This document shows positions 2,742 to 64,000 of a stretch of DNA of 64,000 nucleotides, in pieces. This stretch comes from Halichondria panicea (taxonomy: Eukaryota; Porifera; Demospongiae; Suberitida; Halichondriidae): assembly GCF_963675165.1 (NCBI RefSeq), contig NC_087390.1:62001-126000 (forward strand), written 5' to 3'. Both the position numbers and the translations under genes were made by a program. The stretch's first letter is position 1; every line of letters starts with the position of its first letter. Below the pieces are notes generated by a model, which was given only the letters and a program-made list of their open reading frames with translations, was not told the DNA's origin and ran no database searches.

Positions 2742-5600
2742 GCGTGTGTGTGTGACCACTCAACCGTGTAGGCCATGTGTGGGGGTGGGATGTGTGTGTG
2801 GGTGGCATGAGTGGTCAGCTCAGTACGCTTCATTAAACAGATATGGTTTCATGCTGAGATCGTATCTATTGCAGTTGTACAGCCTTGTTACCACATAAGC
2901 TCTGATCAAATGTACATACATACTGAAAATGGTATGTTGTTTTAGTAGATGGCCTTTGATGGCCTTTGATGAGGGGTAGGTTGCTTTTCCCTGTAGCTAA
3001 TGGCCTTGTTAGTTAAAGTTCTTCTTGTCACTGATGATGGACACAGTCTGTTCATTAGTGTCTGTGTCTCATTACACACCAGTAGGTGCTAATGATTGAG
3101 CAATGGAAACTATGGCCTTTATTAATAAGTGTGAAAATGCTTCCTTAATATATGTTAGTGCTTCATTGCAAGCTCTAGGCCTAGGGTGTCTGTCAGCTTG
3201 TCCTTATACAGTGTGTGTGTGCATGTCAACACCCACAGTGTAGAACAACAATGTGAGATTAACTAGTACTTCAATATATACTGTAGTCTAATAGTTGTGT
3301 TGTTTGGTAGCATTGTGTCCTGTGTTTGTGTGTCCCCTGCAGCAAGTTTATTCATATCCTCAGGGCATGTGGTGTCACTGAATCCACTCTCCTCCAGACA
3401 CTGCATAGTCTAATAGGCTGCCTGCTATAGACCCCATGGCAATAGGCTGCCTGCTGTAGACCCCATGGCAGTAGGCTGCCTGCTGTAGACCCCATGGCAG
3501 TAGGCTGCCTGCTGTAGACCCCATGGCAATAGGCTGCCTGCTGTAGACCCCATGGCAGTAGGCTGCCTGCTGTAGACCCCATGGCAGTAGGCTGCCTGCT
3601 GTAGACCCCATGGAAATAGGCTGCCTGCTGTAGACCCCATGGCAATAGGCTGCCTGCTGTAGACCCCATGGCAATAGGCTGCCTGCTGTAGACCCCATGG
3701 CAATAGGCTGCCTGCTGTAGACCCCATGGCAATAGGCTGCCTGCTGTAGACCCCATGGCAATAGGCTGCCTGCTGTAGACCCCATGGCAATAGGCTGCCT
3801 GCTGTAGACCCCATGGCAATAGGCTGCCTGCTGTAGACCCCATGGCAATAGGCTGCCTGCTGTAGACCCCATGGCAATAGGCTGCCTGCTGTAGACCCCA
3901 TGGCAATAGGCTGCCTGCTATAGACCCCATGGCAATAGGCTGCCTGCTGTAGACCCCATGGCAATATAATTATGATCTACTGTATTTAACCATACTGTCA
4001 ACTTTGGGACAATTCTCTCTGTATTATTCTGTCCATTAATCGGTGCTCCTAAAATTCAATTCCCCAGCCTCTGTTTGTATTGAGTGTTGATACTACCATC
4101 AGTTTGTTGAGGCTTCCCTCATGTGGTGTGGTGGTTAGGGCTAGTTCTAACAACATGGCTCTCATTCTGATAGACAGTGTGTATGTTTCTACACTGCACT
4201 GGCTGTTACAGCAGCACCTGTACATGTGTTACTGGCTGTTACAGCAGCACCTGTGTTACATGTGTTACATTCTGCAATAGCCCTCCACAGGAAATTACTA
4301 CATTCCAGGAGCTGTGTGTGTCAGCCTCCTGTGTTGATTATTACTGACCCTGGAGCACCACTTCCTGAGTGGATGGTTGCCTTTGATATTGAGTTCATTT
4401 CCTGGGGATCTTTTTACTAACATACACACACCCACACACATCCACATACCTACCCACACACACTGTAGGGTTTTCCGGAAGATGCTGTACTCTGAACCCA
4501 ATGGAGGCCAAAAGAAGAAGAAGAAAACGGTCAAATCATCGGATGGTTATATAGAAAAGTACGATTTCAAAGGTCATCCTACAGTGATTGTCAAGGACTT
4601 TGAACCCGAGGTATTTAAGCAGTTGGTGACGTACACGCACACTGGGGGTGTGGTCTTACAAGCCCGTACACTACTAGGATTGATGAATGCAGCGGATCAT
4701 TATGGTCTCGAGGATCTGAAGCAAGCCTGCATACGCTTTATGGAGCAATGCATCACCGTGGATACCGTCTGCTCCCTATTGACATCCGCAGAGAAATATA
4801 TTCAGTATAAGTCCACCAAGATACTTGTCCAGAAGATGCTCGAGTTTGTCGATGTGAATGCTGAGAGTATATTAGCCTTGGGGGCGTTCTCAACCCTGCC
4901 ACAGCATGTTGTAAGGATAGTCCTGAGCAGAGAAGAACTTCAAGCTGTTGAAACTAAGAAGTTTGAAGCTGCTTATCGGTGGTGTCTGCATCACACTGAT
5001 GCCAACTCTGACGTGGAAATGAAGACGGCCTTTGAACCTTTTGTCGATGTTATAAACTTTAGAATGATCCCAGCCACTAGCCTTATGAAGAACGTGAAGC
5101 CAGCCGGTATAGTGGACGATGCTATCATCCTCACAGCACTGGCCTTTCAAGCAGATCCTAAATCAGTGGATCACATCCGCCCACACTCTTCAGCCTCAGG
5201 GGGGCGTAACTTCAGACGTGTTCAATCATCAGGAAACCCCCTCAACAACATGGACTCTAGCGAGCTAGTTCGTACCAAGAGAGGTGGATCTGTACCCCCC
5301 ACAGGGGGCGCTCTACAGTTACGTGGTGACAGCCATCCAATGAGATTACTGACAACACGCGATCGTATTGGATCTCAGAGCTCTTCCCAACTATCCACCC
5401 CGCCAATTAGTCCATGTATCGGTAGTTTCCATGGCAGCAGTACGCTCTCATCAGAGTCAAGCTTTGATGATTATTCCACTGGAGTTAGTCTATCCCAGCC
5501 AGTGTCCTTTGAACCCACCAGAACTACACAGCTTGGCTACAATCAACGTGTGCTAGACACTGTAGTCACCATGAGCAGCACAAACGCTGTAGAAGTATGA
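1978..5600 (+). CDS. BTB/POZ-BACK serine-enriched protein (gprs-like)
   Basis: The main coding exons are about 2285-2679 and 4469-5600; a first exon at 1978-2056 starts MSLERIPSSESLELDNIP. The BTB domain begins at MPELCDVTFLVG and is split by a 1.8-kb intron inside AARS/WVFRKMLYSEP. It carries a lysine-rich insert (GGQKKKKKTVK), then FEPEVFKQLVTYTHTGGVVL, then a BACK domain (CITVDTVCSLLTSAEKYIQY, LPQHVVRIVLSREEL) and a Ser-rich tail of about 120 residues. The arrangement matches the insect serine-enriched protein (gprs), a BTB protein that may be a Cullin-3 adaptor by family. How exon 1 joins exon 2 is unclear: the obvious donor at 2057 leaves the wrong phase for the best acceptor, so exon 2 may have its own start ATG at 2285. 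The stop is at 5598-5600, followed by a TG tract. Confidence 0.8.
3413..3966. repeat. 29-bp minisatellite, about 19 copies, in the BTB gene intron
   Basis: Head-to-tail copies of a 29-bp unit (ggctgcctgctgtagacccc plus atggcaata) with very little divergence; the variants are mostly a/g in the caRta part. The array lies in the intron between the two halves of the BTB domain. Because 29 is not a multiple of 3 and the minus-strand unit has no stop, all three minus frames stay open across it, giving long but meaningless ORFs. Confidence 0.97.
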
Positions 5601-5858: not shown

Positions 5859-8728
5859 TTATCGTGATTGTGTTCTTTCAGTTGAGCAGACGGTTGCTAG
5901 TAGTGATAGCGCTCTTGACCACGCCCCCTTCTTGCTCTGAGGGTCGTCCCACACTCCCACACAGTCACACCGCCCACACACCATCCGTTCAGCCTCACAT
6001 CTTCCACTATACACATCCAAACTAGAGTCCACATTTCTCAGCACACACACAATGTATTGCATGAGCCCTTCAGCCAGAGCAGTGTACACAGCAGGCCTCC
6101 AATGACGGAGTAGACAAGTGTCAAACATCCAACCATTATCATCACACGGAGGAGGGTTGCCGTTGGTAACACTCTCTCGTAGTCTACGTACACAGGCAGC
6201 TTCAAACACACCGCCCCCGGGTAGCACACACCCGTCACTAAAGGCACACTTCACACGATGTAGACAATTGGAGAATTGCTGACTCAGCAGATCCACTGTA
6301 GACTCTGTGCTGCCGCATAGCATCACCGTGACAACAGCTGAGTGTGTGCACGTTATTCGACAAGAGTAGGTTTTGATTGGAAGTCTTCTACTGGTCCCCG
6401 TGTAGCGAGGCCACACCCATCCACCCTCCACCAACTCCGCCCACACACCTCGGCCAAAGTGAACCTGTGGAGTGGGCGGGGGAAGAGCAATTATTAAAAC
6501 ATCTTTGAACGGCCATAACTTTAGTTCTGTTGGTCCATTAATTTATGATTTTACCTTCTCTATTTTGTGTAAATACCATGGGCTATAGCTCACGGTATTT
6601 TTCCGAAAATAAGAAACTGAGCATACCATCTGAAAGAGCTCCTTCTAAGCTTTCAAAAATCATAAAATCGTCGAATTTGAACCATCAGAACTTTAATTAG
6701 AAAATGCTTGTAGTAATACTGCAATCTGATTGGTCACTGAGAGGTCCATTATTTCACTTATGGACCTGAGGTCTTCTAAGTAGGTCTATTATACTGATTA
6801 TGCCTACAGGCAAGATGATGTCAAGATTAACTTGTATGGAACATGGCAACATCACACAGTTTATGTTGAAGTCATAGTAACGATGATACAGTGCATCATT
6901 AAAAATTAAATTTTTTTTAAGTTTTGCGTTCTGCAGTGCCGCTTTGCAGCTTTTATCTCTCTCTTGCAGCTACAATAGCTAGTGCTCTAGTGCAGAGCTA
7001 ACTACTATGACAATAGCAACTTTTTATTTGCAATGCGTGATTCTCAAGAAACAGAAACTGCCTTCATCAATGTGAGTTTTTTTATGTAGACTAGCCAGAG
7101 CAAAGCTTTAACGTTGCTTGAGGCTTGTAGAAACTCTTGGTTTCAGAGTCTTCTTTGTGTTAATATAGCCTAGCTTGCTTAGTACTATTCTAAACCAGTT
7201 ATAGGCCTCGTCAACGGTCACTATGGAGTTTTGAGACCCTCAGGCCCTTAGTAGCACCCTCGCTACGCTCGAGATGCTACAGCCTCGGGCCTTCAGGTCT
7301 CAAAACCCCATAGAGACCTTGGACTCAGTCTATAACTATTATTTATACTGGCAGTAATCACCTCCTTAGTGTATTGCAGATAACAAGTGGACACTGCCCC
7401 GGACATGTGAGATATGGCTTCCCTCTGTTCCTGCCGTACCCCCGTCAACACCACCACCCTCGTTGCTAGGCAGTGTTCCCATAGCAACGGTGACATCATA
7501 CCTCCAACCACAACCAGTCCAACATTGTACTGTGATAAAATAATGATATGACATTTAATTACATCACAGTACCTTCTCCAATAGAGTAGCACATTGCATC
7601 AGCCAATCAGATGGAGTCTGATGCTTGTACAGTAGGTCATGTGATGTCTGTGTCCTGGATAGTCCAGGGTGCGTAGAGGTCGGAGTGCAATCACCATCAA
7701 TGACCTTTAGTGAAGTAATTAATTACACACACTGTACACATATCACACACACTCACAGCCACACAAAGTTGTTGTGATGTTATTGTAGAGGTCATATCTG
7801 ATTGGACGTCTACTAGCACACCCCGCACCACTCTGGATGAACTTTGACCCTTACCAACCACACAATGTGTAAGGACAGAGCTGCAATGACATCACATGAC
7901 ATCACCAGAGTACACAGAGTGCGTGTACCTTGAACCCAGACCACCCCCTGGTAATAACTCTATAGCATCAGCTACTAGCCTCATAGCCTCGTCCCTACCG
8001 TGAGCCAGACCAGCCCTGGAGGTTAATCATCCAATTAATATAGAATTATTATACAATAAATACCTTAATTGATTTTGACTTGTACTGGTGGGACGAGTGG
8101 AGGATAAATGACGACTAAATGTTTTTACCTTCCCTAGCCTCGGAAATGGATCATGTGATCTCCCAGTTTCCATAGCAACAGCACACGAGGTAAAGAGTGG
8201 ATCACATGATCTGAGTCCCTCGTTATACAGTGCCAGCACCACAGGCAAAGGGACCCCCTGCTGTGTGTGTGTGGGGGGGTACAAGGTTATTGAGGGACCC
8301 CCTTTTGTTGGAGGTACTTGCCTCTTGTGTTAGTTTGACCACACCCCCTGCCCAGAGTCCACTTAGACACACCAACGTTGTCACTCCACACCCACACTCT
8401 TTCTGTTGTCCCTGGCAACTCTCGTACAGTATCTGATTGGTCGAATGGCCTCCCTCAGCTGACGTGAGTGCCTCCACCATATGCAGTGTATTCAGGAGCA
8501 GTCCATCATTACCTGAGCTCTCATCTATGTAGGCCTTGATGCTATAAGAGCAATAATGTATTGACCATGGCAGTACGCCCACACCACACCACACACGTAC
8601 CTAGTGGAGGGTCCCAGTGAGCTCCTCACAGACTCACCTACACACACACACAGTCAGCAAACACCCACACCACACACCCACGTACCTAGTGCCTGGAGAG
8701 ACAGACAGTTGTTGACCAACTCAGCCAT
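5859..8728 (-). CDS. BBS12: Bardet-Biedl syndrome 12 chaperonin-like protein
   Basis: Group II chaperonin-like protein of the BBS6/10/12 complex that assembles the BBSome for ciliary traffic (role by family). Start MAELVNNCLSLQALG at 8728. The next exons encode ESVRSSLGPSTR, a block with LYESCQGQQKECGCGVTTLV, then GVPLPVVLALYNEGLRSC, AGLAHGRDEAMRLVADAIEL, YNVGLVVVGGMMSPLLWEHC, and a last exon 5859-6464 with CVLPGGGVFEAACVRRL, WRPAVYTALAEGLMQY and AWSRALSLLA. These follow human BBS12 in order. The junction at 8322/8257 is a GC-AG intron (GAG/GCAAGT to CAGCAG/GGGG), and the fold needs it. The exon near 7760-7850 is only roughly placed. One long intron (6465 to about 7365) holds a hairpin and an old copy of the palindromic repeat. 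Confidence 0.88.
6496..6705. repeat. Diverged single copy of the palindromic intronic repeat
   Basis: Starts AACATCTTTGAACGGCCATA and holds both inverted arms: ACTTTAGTTCTGTTGGTCCA at the left, and CTAAGCTTTCAGAAAATCAT followed by a decayed CATCAGAACTTTAA at the right. The inner ATACCATGGGCTATAG palindrome is also present. It has no homopolymer spacer and belongs to the older subfamily also seen at 43120 and 63755. It lies in a BBS12 intron. Confidence 0.75.
7221..7313. repeat. 93-bp imperfect hairpin (MITE-like) in a BBS12 intron
   Basis: The left arm 7221-7256 (ctatggagttttgagaccct ...) is the imperfect reverse complement of 7274-7313 (... aggtctcaaaaccccatag), with an 18-base loop. Arms of about 36 bp with few mismatches suggest a miniature inverted-repeat element or a structured RNA. 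No clear target-site duplication is visible, and no other copy was seen in this window. Confidence 0.6.
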
Positions 8729-8887: not shown

Positions 8888-11800
8888 TCATTCTTTCTTG
8901 TTCTTTGCTGCCTCCCTCTTGACGACCCTACTGAGTGAGGTAAGATCCCCAGTGAGGTTCCTCTTGAGGATAGTGGAGGCAGCCAACACGCCCCCGAATA
9001 TTGCACCAATGAAGCCACACATAAACACATCCTGTCCTGTCAGATAGAGTCCTGGTACGCTCGTCTGGGGTCGAAGGTCACTCATGGCCTGGAGGGAGAA
9101 ACGAGTTGTGTTGTGGTCCACACCGTACACTTCTCCGCGGGGGGTCCCCAGATAGTGTATATTGGAGAGGGGGGTCCCCACATCCATGTACACTTTACGC
9201 CCCTCCAGCTTAGGAAACAACTCCACCGCCTGTGTGTGTGTGTGGGTGTGAGTGTGAGTGTGTGTGGGTGGTGTGAGTGTGTGTGGTGTGAGTGTGTGGA
9301 GTGTATGGATGTAGGCACGAACCTGTTCCCACATCTGATTGGCCAGCGCTGTCTTGATGCCGATATATTCATCGCCACGACGCAGCACTCGCTCGTTCTC
9401 CCATTCCTGGAACCACTCGTACGGGGCAATGGTTACTATGGCAACTGTAGACTTTCCGGGGAAACGCTGACTATACGTTGGGTCTTTAGTTGATGGAAAT
9501 GACAGGAACATGAGGGGGACCTACGCATGGTGGGGGGTATAATAACACAGGAACATGAGGCACCTACACATGGTGGGGGGTATAATAACACAGGAACATG
9601 AGGGGGACCTACGCATGGTGGGGGGTATAATAACACAGGAACATGAGGCACCTACGCATGGTGGGGGGTATAATAACACAGGAACATGAGGCACCTACGC
9701 ATGGTGGGGGGTATAAATTTATTTGTTTTGCGCGTAAAAAACCTTAATTGTAAAAGAGCCAAATCAGCAGAAAATGTATTGCGTGTGTCCTACATGTATA
9801 TACTGCAGAGATTTTTTGCTATTATTTATGTGATAAAATTCGCTATGTTTGATGCTCACAAAACATTATAGTAATCTCTATGGTAACTCACCTTGGCCGT
9901 GGCAATGTCCTCCAGTGGTGTGCTGACATACTCGGCAGTGATAGCGTTGAGGTCAGAGTCCCTGAACGCCCACACATGCCCTGCCCTCAACTCTAGTTCT
10001 TCAGGGCTACCATCCAGTCCTATGAATACTGACATGAGTCCCACACCGTGACGCACATGAGTCAGTGCGGACTCTAGTCCACTAGCAGGAGGGAGCAACT
10101 CCACAGTGTTGTAGAGGCCAGCATCAGAGATGATCAGAGGGGCCATGATATCATACACTGTGTGACCTACAGTCAAGTATTGGCAATCACATGATATAAT
10201 TATATGCTCCACCAAAACAGTGGAGGCTCTGCACTCTTGATGCTACCTCTAGCAATATTACGCTCCGTCCAATCAGATCTCACCTTGTTTGACAGACACA
10301 CCCACTGCTTTGCCTTCATCCATCAGTATCTGGTTGACCTTTGCCCTCACTAGGACCCGCCCACCAGCCGCCTCTATGGTGGGTATGATATTGAAGGCAA
10401 TCTCGCTAGCTCCTCCTATCGGATAATAGCCTCCATAAGTGAAGTGGTTGGTCAGAGCTGCCTGCATTCCAAATGATGCATCCTTGGGGACAGTCCCTAC
10501 AAGGAATGTGTTGTGATTAGGACAAACAGTTCAACTATCCCCCCCCTCCGTTTAATCAATAATTTGGGGAATCTTTCAGCTGCTATAACTTGAATTCTGT
10601 AGATTGAAAGTCAAAAATGTTATGTTTTTCTGAAAGCTTAGAAAAAGATCTTTAAAATATGATATCCTCAAAGTTGATATTTGAGAGATAAAAGTATTTG
10701 CCAATTTGCCAATACCTGGATGGATTGAAACACATCATTTGAATGGAATTTTTCTAAGCTTCATAAAATTTTAACATTGGATCAACTGTACTGAAGTTTA
10801 TGGCTGTTGAAAGACACCCCCCCCCCCCCCCCCCCTCCATTTAATTAATGATTTTGGGAATCTTTCAGCTGCCATAACTTGAATTCTGTGGATCTGAAGT
10901 CAAAAATTTTAGGATTTTCTGAAAGCTTAGAAAAATACCTTTCAAATGATGTAATCAAAGCTCATATTTAAGAGATAAAAATATTTGCCAATTAAGCCGT
11001 ACCATGGATTATAGCCCATGGTCCGAGGCCAAAAATGACAAATTAGGGCCCGGACGAAATTTTGGATTGAAACACACCATTTTAAAGGAATTTTTCTAAG
11101 CTTTCAGAAAATCCAAACATTTTTGACATTGGATCAACTGTACTCAAGTTATGGCTGTTGAAAGATGTTCAACTACACCCCCACCCCCTCCGTTTCATCA
11201 ATCTCTTTCAGCTTCCATAACTTGAATTCTGTAGATCCAAAGTCAAAAATTTTAGGATTTTCTGAAAGCTTAGAAAAATACCTTTCAAATGGTGTCATTA
11301 AAGCTCATATTTGAGAGATAAAAATATTTGCCAATTAAGCCGTACCATGGATTATAGCCCATGGTCCGAGGCCAAAAATGACAAATTAGGGCCCGGACGA
11401 AATTTTGGATTGAAACACACCATTTTAAAGGAATTTTTCTAAGCTTTCAGAAAATCCAAACATTTTTGACATTGGATCAACTGTACTCAAGTTATGGCTG
11501 TTGAAAGATGTTCAACTACACCCCCACCCTCTCCGTTTCATCAATCTCTTTCAGCTGCCATAACTTGAATTCTGTGGATCCAAAGTCAAATATTTTAGGA
11601 TTTTCTGAAAGCTTAGAAAAATACCTTTCAAATGGTGTAATCAAAGCTCATATTTGAGAGATAAAAATATTTGCCAATTAAGCCGTACCATGGATTATAG
11701 CCCATGGTCCGAGGCAGAAAAATAACAAAATAGGGCCCAGACGAAATTTTGAATTGAAACACACCATTTTAAAGGAATGTTTCTAAGCTTTCAGAAAATC

Positions 11801-12459
11801 CAAAAATAGTTGACATGGGATTAACGGTACTAAAGTTACAATCGTTCAAAGATGCTCATGTGACGCTAAGGTTAGCAGTATAAATATGTACTAGCCAACA
11901 ATACATGACATTACTAGCTCGGTTGATTACCCTACCATAGTCTCCAAAGGAATATGCGAGCACTGCCTTCAGCTCAGTATCAGTGAATATATCGTCCAGT
12001 ACTTGCGTGAGTGATGTTTGGTAGTAAGCCATGTCAGGATTGGTCCATGCCAACAAACCACTGGAGATCACAAGATTAGAACACCATCTTGGCAGCATCT
12101 TAAGCAACGCCATCGTGAGGGTGGAGCGGCGAAGACGCTTTAAAATGTCAAAGAATTTGCGAATAGCTTTGTCCTCTTGTGGAAATCTGTTGACCAGTGA
12201 TTCTACTAACTTGCCACGCCCAGCTGGAATGGGGAATTCCCTTTGATTGGCTCCACCCATTCCAAAGACGACAGTGTCGTACACAGAATCACATTCCTGC
12301 CATTCTACTCCAGAATCACAGAGCTGATCAACTAGTACTCTGCACAGTGTTCCCTCGGCCATCTCACCAACATAGTGGATGCCAACATCAAACTCGAAGC
12401 CTTTATCAATAAAAGTATGACAGCAACCACCGGCCTGATCATGCTGCTCCAACACTAGT

Positions 12460-26872: not shown

Positions 26873-29800
26873 ATGGCCTCCACTAGCATTGACCGTTTTC
26901 ACCACCTCTCAAGACACGGACAAGATGTGGACAACTTGAGCTGGTCAGCAGATCACAGAATGGCAGTTACTACTCCAGAGATGATTATAGTCTGTGTAAG
27001 CAACTCTCCTCGGCTACTATCCTCACAACATACCATGTATATAATACAGACGTTGCTGAGGTCACCGCCCACACCCTCCACACCCTCACACAAGCCACTC
27101 ATGATGGTTTCCACTGCACACGCCCTCACACCTCACACAAAGGAGCTACCGAGACCAGTCACAGTCACACAACATCTGGACCCAGCATTTGCAACGCCCA
27201 CTCTATCATATGATCCCTTCAAACGATCTGATTGGTCGCCATTGGGTTGCAATCAACACAGGGGGTAACTATAGCTTATAATTATAATCATCAATAGTAT
27301 CACTATGACATTGGTATTGTTACTAGCGATTTCAACTGTATATAGCTCATTCTTCTGGTATTAAATTCTGCTAAATTCTGCTGAACTTTGTGAAATCATC
27401 CTAATTACTCGTGATATTCATTGCATTTCCTTATCTGCAATTACAAATGTTTGCTCTTATTTGCTCAAATAGCAGAAAATAATTATGTGACTTAAGGTTA
27501 TACAATTCACAAATGGTGTGTGCGTTACACAGGTGTGTGTTGTGTGGACTGACTGCTAGTGGTCGCCTGGCTCTGTACACTCCGCCAACCTCACAATGGA
27601 AGCTCTGGAAACATGTTCTAACAATCTCTGACATTCTATTGGACGCTGAAATAGCCGTGACCATGACTCCTCACGACAAAGCTATGTTCTCATTCTGTAC
27701 TGCATTCTCATGGCTTCCCTGTATGCTGAGTGGGTGTGTTATCATTGCTATGGCAACCCGATCAGGTCATTTGGTACTTGTGGAGATGTCTTTACCTGTC
27801 ACTGGGTCAATAAGGTGTGTGGATGTGTGGTGTGTGTGTGTGTGGTGTGGGTGGTCGTTACTGAGGATGCATTCTTACATGCAGTGATGGTGTGAAGGTG
27901 GTATGGGCGGAGCTACTAACCGACTGTGGAGAGGGGAGGGAGTGGGCGTGTAGTCTAAAGTGGTGCCACACTCAAGGTATGATATAATGGTAGGACTCTC
28001 TCAGCATGACTTGAGTTCAGTGGATCCGAATTCAAAGTAAAAATGTTATGGTTTTCTGAAAGCTTAGAAAGAGATCTTTCAAACGGTACGATCAAAATTG
28101 ATATTCGAGAGATATAAAAGTATTTGCCAATTTGGAATTGAACCCACTCACGGGAACGCAAAACACTGAAGTTATGGCTGTTGAAAGACACCCCCCCCCC
28201 CCTCCATTTAATCAATGATTTTGGGAATCTTTCAGCTGCCATAACTTGAGTTCTGTGGATCAAAAATCAAAAATTTTAGGTTTTTCTGAAAGCTTAGAAA
28301 GAGACCTTTCAAATGGTACCATCAAAGTTGATATTCGAGAGATAAAAGTATTTTCTAATTTAGCCGTACCATGGATTATAGCCCATGGTCCGAGGCCGGA
28401 AAATGACAAATTAGGCCGCGACAAAATTTTGGGTTGAAACACATCATTTGAAACGAATTTTTCTAAGCTTTCAGAAAATCCTAAAGTTTTTGACATTGGA
28501 TCAACTATACTCAAGTTATGGCTGTTGAAAGACACCCCCCCCCCCCCCCCCCCCCCTCCGTTTAATCAATGATTTTGGGAATCTTTCAGCTGTCATAACT
28601 TGAGTTCTGTGGATCGAAAATCAAAAATTTTAGGTTTTTCTGAAAGCTTAGAAAGAGACCTTTCAAATGGTACCATCAAAGTTGATATTCGAGAGATAAA
28701 AGTATTTTCTAATTAAGCCGTACCATGTATTATAGCCCATGGTCCGAGGCCGGAAAATAACAAATTAGGCCGCGACGAAATTTTGGATTGAAACACATCA
28801 TTTAAAACGAATCTTTCTAAGCTTTCAGAAAATCCTAACGTTTTTGACATTGGATCAACTGTACTCAAGTTATGGCTGTTGAAAGACACCCCCCCTCCCT
28901 CCGTTTAATCAATGATTTTGGAAATCTTTCAGCTGCTATAACTTGAATTCTGTGGATCGAAAGTCAACATTTTTATGGTTTTCTGAAAGCTTAGAAAGAG
29001 ATCTTTCAAATTATACGATCAAAATTTGAGAGATAAAAGTATGGATAATAAATAGCCCATGGTCCGAGGCCGAAAAATGACAAATTAGGGCCCAACAAAA
29101 GTTTGGATTGAAACACACTATTTGAAAGGTATTTTTCTAAGCTTTCAGAAAATCATAATTTTGAGTAAACGGTACTCAAGTTATGGCCAAATCAGCGGGT
29201 GTAGCAAGATGTACTACAAGATGATCGTGGATAGTACAATCTTTGGTATAACTGTTTCTCTTGTAGACCCTTGTGTGAGCGTGGGCTGTACTGATGGTCG
29301 GGTGATGTGTCTGCAATGGATGGATGCTGACTTCACCTCAGCCAATGTCAAGAGCATATGGACCAATGACACTGTGCCTGTGTATCACATGACCTACCTA
29401 CCTCAACACATTGTGTTTGCCAAGGGCAGTATGCTAATAGTGTGTCCACTGGAGGAGGGGAATCCCCTCACAGTGTGTGGCGTGCACTCGTTACCAATAT
29501 CGGGTTAGTGGCTAGTTTGTCTTTGTGTCAATCTTTACAACCTCTCCATTATACAGGGCTGGTAGCGACCAATCAGAATGCAGTATTGTCATCATCACTA
29601 GACGGGAGTGTCCAGATGTGGAGGGTAGGTGATACTAGGCCACACCCACTTAGGACGGGGATCACTGGCCACACCCTTTTAGCCGCACATGGTCTTGCAT
29701 TATCACACAACGCACTACTCCTTGCTGTCACTATCAAGTATGTACACTGTTACCCCTAGTAACCAACTCGTACATACACTGTTGCCCTAGTAACCAACTC

Positions 29801-42003: not shown

Positions 42004-45000
42004 TTATTTAGTAAAGACTACTTCATCCTTTCTCTTCCTAGGTGGTACTGCTCCTGGTTTGTTCTGTGCCTCAGGGTGGTTGGACAGCTCATGAGGACAG
42101 CTGCTCACTGGGCTGTCTATTAGAAGCTGTACACACACACACACACACACACACAGAGAAGCAGCCATGAATGAAATAGCAACAGCACCAACATAACCAT
42201 CTCTAACTGGCATAGTAGCTAGAGTAACAGTATCTAATTATAGATAAGGTACACTCACTTGTTTCAGATCATAGAACACATGGGAATCCTCTTGTGTAAC
42301 GAATGATACAGCAATGCCATTTTTACCAGCTCTCCCAGTTCGCCCAATCCTATGAGTGTAGTCCTCTATGTTTTTGGCCATGTCATAGTTGATGACATAA
42401 GACACATCCCTACACAGTGTGAATGGTGAAGTACACACACCCACACACACACACACACACACACACTGACTTACCTGATGTCTATACCTCTGCCAGCCAC
42501 GTCAGTAGCCACTAGAATATCCTTCTCACCATTCTTGAGGCTCTCTAAAGCATACACTCTGAGAGGGGGTGGGGGGTACAAGTGTGGGGGGTAGCATGTG
42601 GGGGGTACAAGTGTGGGGGTAGCATGTGGGGGGTACAAGTGTGGGGGTAGCATGTGTACAGGTGTGGGGGTAGCATGTGCACAAGTGTGGGGGGTACAGG
42701 TGTGGGGGATAGCATGTGTTGGTACCTTTGCTCCTGATTCCTGCCACCATGCAGTACTGCAGCACTATACTGTGAGAACAAGACAGCTCAGTAACCTACA
42801 CAACTTGTACTGCACCACAACATGCACTAATCACTACATGTTGGCAACTCATTAGACTAGCCAACTAATTCAATAAGTAATTTAGACATCATGAAAGTAC
42901 TCACTCCCATTTTCTCCAGACTCTTGGAGAGGACATCAGCACCTTTCTTCTGGTTGACAAAGATGATGATGGGAGGGTCTAGTCCACTACCCAGCAGGGA
43001 CAACAACTTCTTACGCTTCTCTCCCTCAGACAACATGTGAACTATTTGCTCAACACGCTCCGTCGGTTTCCCTGCAGCAACACACATTCATAACTTATAC
43101 CAACAGCTACCATACATAGGGAGCTCTGTAACTAGAGTTCTGATAGTCCAACTTCAATGATTTCATGATTTTCTGAAAGCTTAGAAAGGAGCTCTTTCAG
43201 ATGGTATGCTCAAATCTCAAATTTAAAATGGGCGATAATTTATTTTCTCAAAAACAGGCCCAAATAGACTTTGGATTTTTAACACACCATCTGAAAGGCC
43301 TCTCTCTAAGCTTTCAGAAAATCATAAAATTAGCATTATTGGACAATCGGAACTAAAGTTATGGCCATTCAAAGATGCTGTGACTAGTCATGTATTGATC
43401 TGTACATACCTGCTGCTCCTATGTAGACTACAGCTGGCCTACGCAGGTAGTTCCTAGCCATCCTCTCTACTGCTGAGGGCATGGTGGCAGTGAACATGAC
43501 AGTCTGTCTGTACTTATGCTGAGAGGAGTCTATATTAGCCAACAGGATTTCAGGGTTCTCAGCGTCGTCCGTGTCTGGCTTCATGTTTGACACTGGAAGA
43601 TGGTCAAGTATCTTCTTGACGTCAGGCTCAAACCCCATATCTATCATACGATCAGCCTACAGCAGGGAGGGGAGACATACACGCTAGAGTATGAACTAAT
43701 TATATTTAAGACTTGTAATTTTTAATCTACACACCTCATCCAGTACAACATAGGTACACTGGGCCAGCACAAGGTAACGGTTCTCTGTGAGATAATCAAT
43801 AATTAATGAAATAACAGAAGTGCTGATCATAGGGGCTTACCCAGCACATCCAGTAGTCGTCCTGGCGTTGCTATGACGATCTCACAGCCGAGACGCAGTA
43901 AGAAACCTTGCTCCTCACGAGAGGCTCCTCCTATGACACTGACAGTGCGAATACCCAGTGGCTTGGCAAACTTCTGTGTCTCCTCTTCTATCTGTGTAGA
44001 GAGTATAAATTATGGGATATAGTTATGGAGTTCCGTTTGCATCAAAATCATTTTGAGAAACAAACGCTTTATTCCTCAAGCCACGGATATTTACTAAACA
44101 TCAGTGTTACTTAATTTATTACTAAAAAGCAGTAAAAGCAGTGATATTTACTAGAACATAGGCTCTGTTGTAATGGACTTGACCTGTTGTGCCAGCTCCC
44201 TAGTGGGGGCCATGATGACTGCATAAGGTCCTTGATCCACTTCAGACTCTCTCACTATCTTGGGTAGACTAGTGATCCATACTAGTAGAGGGAGCACGAA
44301 CGCAGCAGTCTTACCACTACCTGTAGAGAGTGGAGGATAGTGGGGAGGAAGCTCACACATACTTACCAGTTTCAGCAATGCCAATGATGTCTCTATTCTG
44401 TAGTCCAATAGGGATGGCCTGCCTCTGAATGGGAGTAGGGGACACATAGCCCAGGCCATCTATCACTTTCATGATATCTTCAGATAATTGACTCTCTTTC
44501 CAGTTCCGCATTGGATGAGGAATACGACCGCCTTTAGTGGAGATGCTGTAGTCTTCGCGGAATATACGCCAATCTCGTTCAATCATTTCTGTGAGTGGTT
44601 TATCGCTCCAGTGGCGATCATCGAAGCGTTGTCTGCTCTCCTTCTTACGCTCCTTCCCTTCCAGTACTCTGTATGTGTGTGTGTGTGGGCATACATGAAA
44701 TTTGAAGTTAAAGCGTGGGCTATAGCCTTTGTTTTGTCCGAAATTATACTGTTTTAGGAGAAAACTTTGACTGTCCATAACTTGAGTAGGATTGTCCAAT
44801 TTCATAACTAAAATATGCAATCAGTAGCTCTTTGAAGAGCTTGTACAAGATGGAGTCTTAACTACAACCCAGTATCACTCACTCTGCCTGTTTCTTCTGA
44901 TCATCAGTACGTCTCTCATCCAGCAGCTCTTGATAGAATTGAGATTTGTTTTTCTTCTGTACACGAATATCGATACCTGCCAGATTACCTCTACCAAAGA

Positions 45001-51236: not shown

Positions 51237-54200
51237 TCACACTAGTTCATCGCTGAGTCCATAGAGTAGTGAATCATTCTCGTACGTGGGGAACAAGTAT
51301 CTGCAGAGGGAGAGGGAGGTAGTCAGATAATGACTGCAGGGGTAGTGTGTAGGACACAGGGGGACGGGTAGTATGCATGTAGGCCACAGGGGGTAGTGTG
51401 TAGGCCACAGGGGGTAGTATGAATGTAGGCCACAAGAGCTTAAAGAGCTTACTGTGGCTGATCCCATACTGTTCTGTTGCTAGGCAATCTGTAGTGGGAG
51501 CTGGCTGTCATGTGATCCAACAAGAGCGGCAGAGATGAGAAGTGCTGACCACAGCAAACACAAGCACTGGAGTGAACCTGTATCAATAGTTGAACATAAT
51601 TATTTCAACAGCCATAACTTGAGTACAGTTGATCCAATGTCAACAATTTTATGATTTTCTGAAAGCTTAGATTCTTTCAAATGATGTGTTTCAATCCAAA
51701 ACTTTGTCGGGGCCCTAATTTGTCATTTTTCGGCCTCTGCTATATAATCCATGGTACGGCTAAATTAGAAAATACTTTTATCTCTCGAATATCAATTTTG
51801 ACGTACTGTACCATTTGAAAGATCTCTTTCTAAGCTTTCAGAAAACCATAAAAATGTTGACTTTCAATACACAGAATTCAAGTTATAGCAGCTAAAAGAT
51901 TCACAAAATCATTGATTAAACGGAGGGGGGTGTCTTTCAACAGCCATAACTTGAGTACAGTTGATCCAATGTCAAAAACTTTAGGATTTTCTGAAAGCTT
52001 AGAAAAATTCCTTTCAAATGATGTGTTTCAATCCAAAATTTCGTCGCGGCCTAATTTGTCATTTTCCGGCCTCGGGCCATGGGCTATATCCATGGTACGG
52101 CTAAATTAGAAAATACTTTTATCTCTCGAATATCAACTTTGATGGTACCATTTGAAAGGTCTCTTTCTAAGCTTTCAGAAAAACCTAAAATTTTTGATTT
52201 TCGATCCACAGAACTCAAGTTATGACAGCTGAAAGATTCCCAAAATCATTGATTAAACGGAGGGGGGGGGGGGGTGTCTTTCAACAGCCATAACTTGAGT
52301 ACAGTTGATCCAATGTCAAAAACTTTAGGATTTTCTGAAAGCTTAGAAAAATTCGTTTCAAATGATGTGTTTCAATCCAAAATTTCGTCGCGGCCTAATT
52401 TGTCATTTTCTGGCCTCGGACCATGGGCTATAATCCATGGTACGGCTTAATTAGAAAATACTTTTATTTCTCGAATATCAACTTTGATGGTACCATTTAA
52501 AAGGTCTCTTTCTAAGCTTTCAGAAAAACCTAAAATTTTTGATTTTCGATCCACAGAACTCAACTTATGACAGCTGAAAGATTCCCAAAATCATTGATTA
52601 AACGGAGGGGGGGGGTGTCTTTCAACAGCCATAACTTGAGTACAGTTGATCCAATGTCAAAAACTTTAGGATTTTCTGAAAGCTTAGAAAAATTCGTTTC
52701 AAATGATGTGTTTCAATCCAAAATTTTGTCGCGGCCTATTTTGTCATTTTCTGGCCTCGGACCATGGGCTATAATCCATGGTACAGCTTTGTTGGTACCA
52801 TTTGAAAGGTCTCTTTCTAAGCTTTCAGAAAAACCTAAAATTTTTGATTTTCGATCCACAGAACTCAACTTATGACAGCTGAAAGATTCCCAAAATCCTT
52901 GATTAAACGGAGGGGGGGGGGGGGGGAGGGTGTCTTTCAACAGCCATAACTTGAGTACAGTTGATCCAATGTCAAAAATTTTAGGATTTTCTGAAAGCTT
53001 AGAAAAATTCGTTTCAAATGATGTGTTTCAATCCAAAATTTCGTCGCGGCCTATTTTGTCATTTTTTGGTCTCGGACCATGGGCTATAATCCATGGTACG
53101 GCTTAATTAGAAAATACTTTTATCTCTCGAATATCAACTTTATTGGTACCATTTGAAAGGTCTCTTTCTGAAAAACCTAAAATTTTTGATTTTCGATCCA
53201 CAGAACTCAACTTATGACAGCTGAAAGATTCCCAAAATCATTGATTAAACGGAGGGGGGGGGGGGGGGGGGGTGTCTTTCAACAGCCATAACTTGAGTAC
53301 AGTTGATCCAATGTCAAAAACTTTAGGATTTTCTGAAAGCTTAGAAAAATTCGTTTCAAATGATGTGTTTAAATCTAAAATTTCGTCGCGGCCAAATTTG
53401 TCATTTTCCGGCCTCAGACCATGGGCTATATATAATCCATGGTACGGCTTAATTGGCAAATACTCAAATATCAACTTTGATGACGCCATTTGAAAGGTAT
53501 TTTTCTAAGCTTTCAATTGACTTCGGATCCACGGAATTTAAGTTATGGCAGCTGAAAGAGTTCCCAAACCATTGGAAAATTAAAATTAAAAATTTACAGA
53601 AATCACCCACTAGTGACTATCATTAAAGTAATCAGGATAAACCATTCCAACCTGTCTCCTGATGTAGTTGACAATTCTGATCTGTCCATAATAATCCAGC
53701 CCCATCCCAGAGGCTAGAGAAGTGAGGTCAAAGCTGTGACTGTCTTGCATATGTCTGAGTGTCTCCTCAATGGTAGAGTGTGGACTGAGACAGAACAGGC
53801 AGTGGACTGAGGCCTCCAGTGGGGAGGGCTCCTCCAACCACTCACTGTGGGGGGTAGGGTGTGGGGGGTATCAATCACTCTACAATTTGCAAGTGAAAAA
53901 CACGTACTTTGCAAATGAGCCAAATCAGCAGAAAAATCTTAAAATTCCGATCGCGTTCTTAAAATACGATAATAATTATAATTATTAATATTAGCTACAC
54001 GAACATAGATTCTTATTAGGGACAATACTCTATCGTTATTGAATAAGTCAGTACACTAGTAGACACAGAGGCTATGCAGTAAGCTAAGCAAATGAACACA
54101 ATGAGATAATCCACCTCTCCTCTGAGACCCCGACACTATCCCAGTGTCCCTGTCTCTGCAGGACCTGCTCCCACGTCAGCCCAAGCTCTAAATAGTTGAT

Positions 54201-56187: not shown

Positions 56188-59101
56188 ATGTATTCCACCG
56201 GTGCTCTGATTGTTGAGAGCAGTAAGCTGCTCCTCCCAGCACTGGTAGCCGCCTCACGTGTCGTATCCAACGTCCTCTACATTCCTCTAAACTATGAAAC
56301 CACACCTCCCGGCCAAACACTGAGCACAGCCTCACAACAGATTCGTCGGATATATTTGGAAGTGTCACAAACTAGCCCTCTACTAGACGTGCGCATTCTC
56401 CTCCCATCACCACTTGAGCGATCACTAGGGCCAACCACACTACTGCAATATGGAGACCTGGACGTAGTTCTCAGCTCTCTACCTAACTTTGAGCAGGTGT
56501 GTCCATGCAGATCAGTCTTTGTATAAGTACTACTAGTCTGTTTCGTAGGTGAGGAGCTCAGCCAGATATCAGCTGCTGGCTGAGCGGGTGAAGGGAGTGG
56601 GCCTGGAGGCACGCTACAAGCATATCAAGGTGAGCATCTCCAGCCAACAATGTACTGACTTATTTCAACTAAAATGCCAAATTATTCAAAATGAGGCTGT
56701 TTTGCCCCAACAGGTTGATGAGTCCCCTACCATATCTAATGAGGGAGCCCCTGCTATTAAGGACTATAACGATGTAGTGCTTGGCGGTACATTTGACAAT
56801 ATACACAACGGGCATCGTCTACTCCTCACACAGAGTGCTCTAATTACGCGACGAAGACTCCTAATCGGAATATCGAGTGGAGCGTTACTATCCTCAAAAA
56901 TCCTCCCAGAGCTCATAAAACCAGCGCCCAATCGGATTGCAGACGTGCAGATGTTTTTATCGGATATACAGCCGGGGATAGTCCACGAGGTAGTGAGTAT
57001 AACGGATGTGTATGGTCCGACTATCACTGATGAAGGGTTGGAATGCGTAGTGGTCAGTCCTGAGACTGTGAGGGGGGCACAGATGATCAATACTGAGCGG
57101 ACACTGAAGGTGAGCATGGTCACACACACACAGTCCCCACCCCCTCTATATGGTACCATTTGAAAGGTCTCTTTCTAAGCTTTCAGAAAAACATAAAATT
57201 TTTGATTTTCGATACACAGAACTCAAGTTATGGCAGCTGAAAGATTCCCAAAATCATTAATTAAACGGAGGGGGGGGAGGTGTCTTTCAACAGCCATAAC
57301 TTGAGTACAGTGGATCCAATGTCAAAAATGTTAGGATTTTCTGAAAGCTTAGAAAATTACCTTTCAAATGATGTGTTTCAATCCGAAATTTCATTGGGGC
57401 TCTAATTTGTCATTTTTCGGCCTCGGACCATGGGCTATAATCCATGGTACGGCTAAATTAGAAAATACTTTTATCTCAACTTTGATGGTACCATTTGAAA
57501 GGTCTCTTTCTAAGCTTTCAGAAAAACATAAAATTTTTGATTTTCGATCCACAGAATTCAAATTATGGCAGCTGAAAGATTCCCAAAAAATCATTAATTA
57601 AACGGAGGTGGGGGGTGTCTTTCAACAGCCATAACTTCAGTACAGTTGATCCGATGTCAACATTTTTATGATTTTCTGAAAGCTTAGAAAATTACCTTTC
57701 AAATGATGTGTTTCAATCCGAAATTTCATTGGGGCCCTAATTTGTCATTTTTCGGCCTCGGACCATGGGCTATATATATATAATCCATGGTATTTGGCCA
57801 CCACCACACACACACACAGGGTCTGAGGCCGCTAGCTGTCCACACTATAGAGATAGTGGACCGGCTCCCTTCAGGTGCCCCCACTCTAGCGCAGGAAGCT
57901 AAACTGAGTTCCTCTGATATACGGCGTGGGATGATGGGCAGTTATAGACACACACACACACGCACAAAACCCTTCACCAGTGAAGAAACATATCTGATTG
58001 GTCTGACTGGTGGTATTGCCTCAGGCAAGTCAGCCATTTTGAAACGGCTGAGCAAGAAAGGTGCCTACACTATTGACTGTGACAAGCTTGGACACGAGGC
58101 ATACTGTGTCGGCAGCATGGCTCATACTAAGATAGTCGAGACCTTTGGTGAAGGTAGGTTGTCTACAGCTGTGTATAGCTATCGTCTAGTTACCATACCT
58201 AGGGGTTCTTGATGACAATGGAGGGATCAACAGAAGAGTGCTCGGACCAATAGTGTTTGCTGACAAGGTTTGGGACATTCTATATAATATCTAGCTCTGC
58301 TAATCATTGCCCCCCCCCCTCCACACACACCCCACACACACCCCCACACACACACACAGGCTAAATTGGAGCAGCTTAATCTGATAGTTTGGCCAGAGAT
58401 ATGGTCCCAAGTGGAGCGGAGGATAGAACAAGCCGTTGCCGAGGGTTACGCTGTGTGTGTCATCGATGCTGCAGTCATGTTGAGTGCAGGCTGGGAGAAG
58501 AATATGCACGAAATATGGGTTGCCATAGCACCCAAAAAAGACGTGCGTTAACATCATAAATTTTTTAAAAATTGTGTAATAATTATTTGTATTATTTTGC
58601 CCCAGGTGGTTGCTAGGATAATGGATCGAGATGGGTTGAGTGAGGGGGCAGCACTCAGTCGTATGGCTTCACAGCCGACCAATGACGAGTACGTGCAACA
58701 AGCCAACGTTGTGTTCAGCACACAGTGGGAGCAAGACTACACTCAGAAACAGGTAACCATGGAGACTCTCTCTAGTAGGCTTTTCTAGGATTAGCACTGT
58801 GCACATTTGTAGCCTTGTTAGAGCTTGTGCTGTTATAGCCACGATCCCAGCCCCTCTCACGGCCTATAGCCACGATCCCAGCCCCTCTCACGGCCTATAG
58901 CCACGATCCCAGCCCCTCTCACGGCCTGCCAGGAATCGAGGCTAGTACTGTTAGCATAAGATCTGCAACCTTTAGTTTATGGCTGCTTTTATGTACATCG
59001 AGTAATTTGTATGATCTCATGCACAGGTTGACAAAGCGTGGGAGGAGCTACTGACAAGAATCCAGTCAGTGAACACAAAACCTGCAAACAGTCAACTCTA
59101 G
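56188..59101 (+). CDS. COASY: Bifunctional coenzyme A synthase (PPAT and DPCK)
   Basis: Catalyses the last two steps of CoA synthesis: 4'-phosphopantetheine adenylyltransferase and dephospho-CoA kinase. Eight exons (56188-56496, 56549-56629, 56714-57109, 57820-58153, 58203-58267, 58360-58542, 58606-58752, 59027-59101) join in frame to 529 residues. After an N-terminal family region (LDVRILLPSPLE) comes the PPAT domain with VVLGGTFDNIHNGHRLLL (nucleotidyltransferase T/HxGH-type site) and VVVSPETVRGAQMIN. Then comes the DPCK domain with the P-loop LIGLTGGIASGKSAILKRL, CDKLGHEAY, INRRVLGPIVF and VCVIDAAVMLSAGW. Fusion of the two enzymes is the animal arrangement. Intron 3 (57110-57819) is filled by palindromic repeat units; intron 7 has a 31-bp triplicate. 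A 27-bp direct repeat lies in the 3'UTR (about 59123-59173). Confidence 0.97.
57135..57795. repeat. Tandem array (about 2 units) of the palindromic repeat in COASY intron 3
   Basis: One partial and about two further units with G spacers at about 57268 and 57607. Unit sequence and orientation are as in the ZNF277 array. The last unit is cut off in the inner palindrome, which has gained a TATATATA expansion (57771-57782), 25 bp before the CA tract and the exon 4 acceptor. Confidence 0.88.
58838..58928. repeat. 31-bp tandem triplicate in COASY intron 7
   Basis: Three perfect copies of tagccacgatcccagcccct plus ctcacggccta. Each contains a CCCAG acceptor-like step, but the true acceptor (GCACAG/GTTGAC) lies 100 bp further on. 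Confidence 0.9.
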
Positions 59102-63754: not shown

Positions 63755-64000
63755 AAAGACGTAGAATGGTCCAAATTCAACAATTTTCTGAAGGAGCTCT
63801 TTCAGATGACATGCTCAAATCCTAAATTTGGAACTGGCCGAAATTTCCTATTTTCGGGAAAAGACTATGGGCTATATATAGCCCATGGTATTTTGTCAAA
63901 AACAGCCCCAAAATAGACCGTTGATTTTAACACATCATCTGAAAGGCCTCTCTCTAAGCTTTCAGAAAATCACAAAATTAACGTTATTGGACCAACAGAA
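63755..64000. repeat. Old-subfamily palindromic repeat, cut by the window end
   Basis: Begins TAGAATGGTCCAAATTCAAC, with CTGAAGGAGCTCTTTCAGAT, the inner TGGGCTATATATAGCCCATG palindrome, and the right arm TCTAAGCTTTCAGAAAATCA ending TTGGACCAACAGAA at the last base. The GGTCC(A/C)A core, the CATCTGAAAGG(CC) step and the absence of a homopolymer spacer match the copies at 6.5 and 43.1 kb. Confidence 0.75.

Follow-up and report, generated by a model that had tools for sequence, protein, structure and literature searches.

What kind of repeat fills introns of four genes near one chromosome end of the sponge Halichondria panicea, and is it there because of the RNA it can form? The window, as we call the whole 64-kb stretch of DNA analysed here (C14:62001-126000), lies 62-126 kb from a TTAGGG telomere. 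From its letters alone, an earlier sequence-only reading had described an almost fully palindromic, non-coding unit, arranged in tandem at four places, whose transcripts should fold into double-stranded RNA (dsRNA).

Using the unit at 51936-52276 as a blastn query, we found tandem units of about 340 bp at four sites in the window, with TRF periods of 315-354, and these are the four places first claimed. The arrays lie at 10539-11854 (minus strand) in a RETSAT-like gene, 27993-29187 (minus) in a GTF3C4-like gene, 51603-53574 (plus) in a ZNF277-like gene and 57150-57775 (plus) in a COASY-like gene. With two further queries, a copy of the older type and a 40-bp minisatellite, the merged total for the family was 5,508 bp, or 8.6% of the window; the sequence-only reading had put it at about 5 kb or 8%. 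Four array ORFs of 101-110 aa had no Pfam match, which likewise supports the non-coding nature claimed for the repeat.

The arrays differ in composition. That in ZNF277 has six units (51604-51930, 51936-52276, 52280-52615, 52621-52924, 52936-53266 and 53278-53574); its last arm is old-type, and all others but one score as young-type. The RETSAT array belongs to an intermediate subfamily, and two of its unit junctions retain the GTTGAACATC segment of older copies. The GTF3C4 array has inner units of young type and, near 28134-28164, a trace of the 40-bp minisatellite, and the COASY array starts and stops mid-unit (unit positions 207 to 154). Besides the four arrays, blastn detected three relics that the sequence-only reading had missed: a single arm of the family at 6623-6692, an old hairpin with two inverted arms about 45-55 nt apart at 43129-43377, and an arm at 63921-64000 whose likeness to loci L022 and L024 continues left to 63766-63790. 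A 29-bp minisatellite (19 copies, 98% alike by TRF) is also present in the window at 3412-3966.

The intronic position proposed for the arrays was borne out at all four sites, where the flanking exons join in an open frame. The introns span 10497-11935 (RETSAT-like, minus strand), 27960-29204 (GTF3C4-like, plus), 51578-53651 (ZNF277-like, minus; in-frame join NYIRRQ/VHSSACVCCG) and 57110-57819 (COASY-like, plus), the array making up 626 of the 710 bp of the last. For GTF3C4, a donor at 27977 (CAAG/GTATGA) produced a frameshift on joining and was replaced by one 17 bp upstream (AAA/GTGGTG) that gives an open frame; because of this first failure the GTF3C4 donor is less certain. The RETSAT donor was chosen to fit what we take to be its homologues, and the names RETSAT and GTF3C4 are themselves mostly our presumption. 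In a Pfam search of the joined exons, the ZNF277 junction was spanned by a C2H2 pair and the COASY junction by a CTP_transf_like match below cut-off, and the joined RETSAT and GTF3C4 pieces had no Pfam match. Single exons matched CTP_transf_like and CoaE for COASY, TFIIIC_delta (below cut-off) for GTF3C4 and, for the upstream RETSAT-like exon, general flavoprotein domains.

Without their arrays the introns would measure 84 bp (COASY), 123 bp (RETSAT), 102 bp (ZNF277) and 50 bp (GTF3C4). The array ends are 17-81 nt from the splice sites, which lie outside the repeat in all four cases. Beyond the window, exon joins were tried for three repeats, only at loci with recognisable exons. An in-frame dishevelled PDZ piece of 21 residues surrounds the repeat at L034 (E = 2e-8 to DVL-2) and an in-frame PX domain surrounds that at L044 (E = 2e-7); at L003, an array on C6, the join was out of frame with the splice sites chosen.

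In three of the six ZNF277-array units, arms of 93 nt are 80-83% complementary and separated by 128, 129 and 93 nt, the shortest separation being that of a unit carrying a deletion. The hairpin at 51928-52241 (plus strand), for example, pairs 51928-52020 with 52149-52241 at 83% complementarity. Paired arms in the remaining units are shorter (43-70 nt). Arms pair also across the unit junctions of this array (76-82% over 88-93 nt, separation 26-36 nt), and the array is therefore a series of alternating inverted arms. The unit centre holds a CCATGG..CCATGG palindrome, yet it lies outside any single long palindrome. Among 63 full units, 79.6% of 85 arm positions are paired. With this degree of pairing and with the centre not part of the palindrome, “almost fully palindromic” is an overstatement: what stands is a pair of hairpin arms of about 93 nt and about 80% complementarity.

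The main feature of the family, its concentration at chromosome ends, was invisible to a reader of the window alone. The genome comprises 131,455,214 bp in 39 contigs, with C2-C17 of 5.7-8.6 Mb each, C18-C21 below 28 kb, and C1 estimated from telomere positions at about 18.14 Mb. TTAGGG arrays occur at 7 of the 20 assembly ends read, including the C14 end beside the window, and are absent at 13; each of the seven has a family member at most 0.15 Mb away. The core 19-mer TTTCTAAGCTTTCAGAAAA has 1,338 exact matches in the genome (690+648) compared to 0 for its reversed control, so the family is not a product of chance; an exact consensus of 47 bases, too strict a pattern, had no genome match. 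The set of 19-mer positions is complete for just two contigs, C1 and C2. The 43 matches on C2 form 24 loci, none farther than 1.2 Mb from an end (P = 4e-14). Of the 37 loci on C1, 19 are no more than 1.5 Mb from an end, and there are interior clusters, chiefly at 15.5-16.2 Mb.

DNA searches gave a similar picture for the best-scoring regions (the best 40 of 1,244 with the window-type query and the best 40 of 1,423 with an older one). For the first query, 31 of the 39 best-scoring loci, four of which are the window's own arrays, were no farther than 0.3 Mb from an assembly end and 36 no farther than 0.6 Mb. For the older copy, whose 40 loci include the query itself, the corresponding counts were 21 and 28 of 40, and 38 lay at most 1.5 Mb from an end. 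The 0.3-Mb end zones make up 7.8% of the genome. As a location control, the 40-bp minisatellite turned out to be itself subtelomeric, and a reverse-transcriptase domain was used instead: among its 150 best matches, 7 fell into the 0.3-Mb end zones and 36 were no farther than 1.5 Mb from an end. The control establishes that coding retroelements of this genome lack a subtelomeric bias, not that the hairpin family is alone in having one.

The family is strongly subtelomeric, with exceptions on C1 and C6. Three rarer exact patterns occurred at 15 places (all within about 0.82 Mb of an end), 12 places (three at 1.7-1.95 Mb from an end) and 5 places (two on C6 at 2.70 Mb). Five best-scoring loci were more than 1.5 Mb from an end, all on C6 at 2.70-3.05 Mb, within an exceptional cluster that spans 1.92-3.05 Mb. 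Both assembly ends of C6 lack TTAGGG, and an N run of at least 4.8 kb adjoins one of its arrays. The interior clusters on C6 and C1 could be former chromosome ends or scaffolding errors.

The family occurs as solo copies as well as arrays. Twenty older-type copies were fetched, of which three are near duplicates and four (L029, L031, L036 and L038) adjoin a partial second unit. Alignment of 19 sequences, 17 of the twenty and one each from L009 and L021, yielded a common hairpin of about 320 bp with ragged ends. No target-site duplication above chance was found among 18 old-type copies, a sample restricted to that type with L038 and the three duplicates omitted: the longest word shared by the two flanks averaged 6.06 compared to 5.70 after shuffling, and 83 of 500 shuffled pairings were as high as the observed mean. 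Several of these loci have been copied together with their surroundings. L032, L034 and L035 (C3, 7.869, 7.893 and 8.077 Mb) have near-identical repeats and flanks, and the flanks of L034, the one translated, are dishevelled-like PDZ exons; L031 and L036 (C7, 110.3 and 84.8 kb) represent the same repeat and flanks twice near one end, a local duplication. At L039 the last 41 nt on the right repeat the left end exactly as its inverted complement, so that one arm looks like a copy of the other.

In its size (about 320 bp), its inverted arms (about 80% complementary) and its non-coding sequence, the element has features of a MITE; fixed termini and a target-site duplication were not found in the 18 old-type copies. 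Since the ends are ragged and no duplication rises above chance, transposase-driven insertion is not shown by these copies. One possibility is that the family is a true TIR transposon (MITE), still mobilised by a transposase, for which the TTAA beside ACGGAGGG is the target site and from which arrays arise by self-insertion. TTAA does stand directly before ACGG at the left end of the young-type L012, L016, L017 and L024, and L016 and L024 end in ..GATTAA, as would be expected of a target site, and junctions in the ZNF277 array, which read GATTAAACGG, speak for the same explanation. On the other hand, the motif may just belong to the unit. The termini are harder to reconcile with such a transposon, as the outermost 20 bp or so of the two ends are not mutual inverted repeats, and the old-type copies lack a duplication above chance and have variable ends. 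We consider this explanation unlikely.

Young-type units are without the AGTTGAACAT stretch, which is present in older copies and at the RETSAT-array junctions. In some arrays unit positions from about 24 to 168 are replaced by copies of the 40-bp minisatellite; the arrays at L011, L014, L015, L019 and L020 have this minisatellite fused into palindromic units. An exact 29-mer of the minisatellite has 728 forward and 220 reverse matches in the genome, and the first 100 listed are all at C1:38570-240593 on the plus strand. Comparison of 60 array flanks revealed no sequence common to the arrays. Seven flank matches were obtained, three of them within pieces of one locus, three of 18-26 bp and one informative. 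At L011:3759-3847, on C2 about 0.27 Mb from the end, a 93-bp fragment of the GTF3C4 gene directly adjoins the array. This fragment is 86% identical to window positions 27840-27932, and the array of the C14 copy starts 61 bp further.

Relatedness among the 63 full units is greater within arrays (mean identity 0.923) than between loci (0.887). Forty-four units come from arrays that contain two or more full units; their nearest relative was in the same array in 26 cases (shuffled mean 2.0), elsewhere on the same chromosome in 5 and on another chromosome in 13, with identities of up to 98.8% across chromosomes. Across the 21 arrays in which four or more arms were scored, 10 of 42 terminal arms are clearly old, compared to 11 of 109 internal arms (permutation P = 0.002). 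Older terminal arms of this kind are compatible with expansion within an old copy and also with homogenisation that is slower towards the edges of an array. L010, L013 and L016 are young-type throughout and one end of L021 is younger than its inner arms, a pattern that expansion inside an old copy does not predict. Head-to-tail tandem arrays and within-array homogenisation are properties of a satellite; the main array spans only about 0.6-2.3 kb at 20 fetched sites and in the window, and does not form the long arrays of heterochromatic blocks.

Another explanation is that the arrays are kept for a function of intronic hairpin RNA, as dsRNA for Dicer or ADAR, in circular RNA formation or in splicing control. 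Predicted folding is very stable, with −117 kcal/mol and z = −11.1 for the unit at 51928-52241, z = −10.9 for a second single unit and z = −17.7 for 1,000 nt of array. The sequence-only reading was thus right that transcribed units can fold into hairpins (z about −11), and its further step to a Dicer or ADAR substrate stays at the level of possibility; judged from these folding models, array introns may give rise to dsRNA. The closeness of the array ends to the splice sites (17-81 nt) would also suit such a function, as would the little variation of the stem core and centre between subfamilies and the scarcity of private changes in the centre.

Selection for pairing would be expected to leave a mark on the arms, and here the data argue against an RNA function. 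Within-unit co-variation of the arms is almost nil: pairing within units is 0.796 compared to 0.791 when arms are shuffled among units, a level that 3 of 1,000 shuffles reach, and 3 of 89 consensus pairs have changes on both sides. The signal for arm co-evolution is poor and not convincing. Private mutations in the stem number 24 compared to 28.8 expected, a depletion that is not significant (P = 0.16). In the centre (columns 123-175, 46 columns) there are 7 where 19.5 would be expected (for randomly drawn columns, P is about 0.0003); the region, picked after the data had been seen, ranks with the lowest of 269 contiguous windows. This depletion hints at some constraint or conversion in the centre and not at the stem, and because the centre is not stem it leaves the odds of the dsRNA explanation unchanged. 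In a permissive Rfam search (51500-53650, E up to 10) the array resembled miRNA precursors, the best match having E = 3.4e-8 and 43.7 bits against a cut-off of 100; we rejected this identity since the matches are far below cut-offs and weak matches of this kind reflect the long hairpin. At gathering scores Rfam reported only a tRNA in the window, elsewhere than the arrays. Overall, retention for an RNA function seems doubtful.

Two further explanations are very improbable. Short dispersed arrays like those of oyster elements, as presented in parts of one paper (PMC7492417), would suit non-autonomous Helentrons (HINE) or retrozyme-type elements with central tandem repeats, but the 60 flanks hold no common left or right sequence and Rfam detected no ribozyme, hammerhead included, in the window (gathering scores) or in 51500-53650 (E up to 10). 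Introner-like elements, whose insertion would have created the introns, would account for array-free introns of about 50-123 bp and for the short distance (17-81 nt) between array ends and splice sites, but the splice sites lie outside the repeat and solo copies show no duplication pattern.

The origin that we think probable is a MITE- or foldback-like, non-autonomous and non-coding hairpin repeat that was amplified to short satellite arrays and exchanged among chromosome ends. An inverted-repeat element of about 320 bp would have spread long ago as single copies, and a unit of about 340 bp, which includes a poly-G spacer, would then have multiplied in tandem, perhaps when existing copies underwent internal unequal exchange or conversion. 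Units may have been carried between chromosome ends by ectopic recombination, possibly via circular or copied array DNA, and the arrays would persist in introns because splicing removes them. The capacity to form dsRNA is most likely incidental. This origin does not predict the few private changes in the centre, which speak against simple neutral decay.

It could be speculated that the family is an end-specific hairpin satellite which reaches introns on different chromosomes when older copies there serve as targets for homology-directed, flank-free copying, and that introns of many subtelomeric genes would then produce long hairpin RNA, possibly feeding end-specific RNA-based silencing or editing. 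We regard this as improbable. Whichever applies, one genome offers single hairpins, subfamilies, young arrays and hybrid minisatellite-fused arrays for mutual comparison, so that the passage from mobile element to satellite, and the sharing of sequence among chromosome ends, could be traced in detail. If the array introns are transcribed and edited or diced, they would be natural long hairpins within ordinary animal genes.

Among open-licence papers searched by title and the start of the abstract, none describes this hairpin family. A blastn search of phages and plasmids gave no match to it, and neither did two exact patterns each in prokaryote genomes and viral contigs, for which exact patterns are insensitive. 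Subtelomeric repeats of other eukaryotes are common to the ends of different chromosomes and form long heterochromatic blocks. The sponge family is likewise common to the ends of different chromosomes; unlike those repeats, it forms short arrays within the introns of ordinary genes.

Compared to Cg_HINE, the Helentron arrays of the Pacific oyster, the family is similarly short, dispersed and satellite-like, going by portions of the paper on them (PMC7492417), and differs in having no conserved left or right flanks (60 flanks). Closer parallels are the MITE-derived satellites Xstir and miDNA4 of Xenopus and Angel of zebrafish, which in excerpts from a review (PMC12628747) are small inverted-repeat elements found, like ours, as single copies and as tandem arrays, and for which stem-and-loop based amplification has been proposed. 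In contrast to these, the repeat unit here is the whole hairpin with its poly-G spacer, no target duplications were detected, and the copies cluster towards chromosome ends. As the same excerpts describe similar routes from MITE to satellite (PMC12628747), the kind of repeat is already known; within this general kind, the preference of the sponge family for chromosome ends looks unusually strong.
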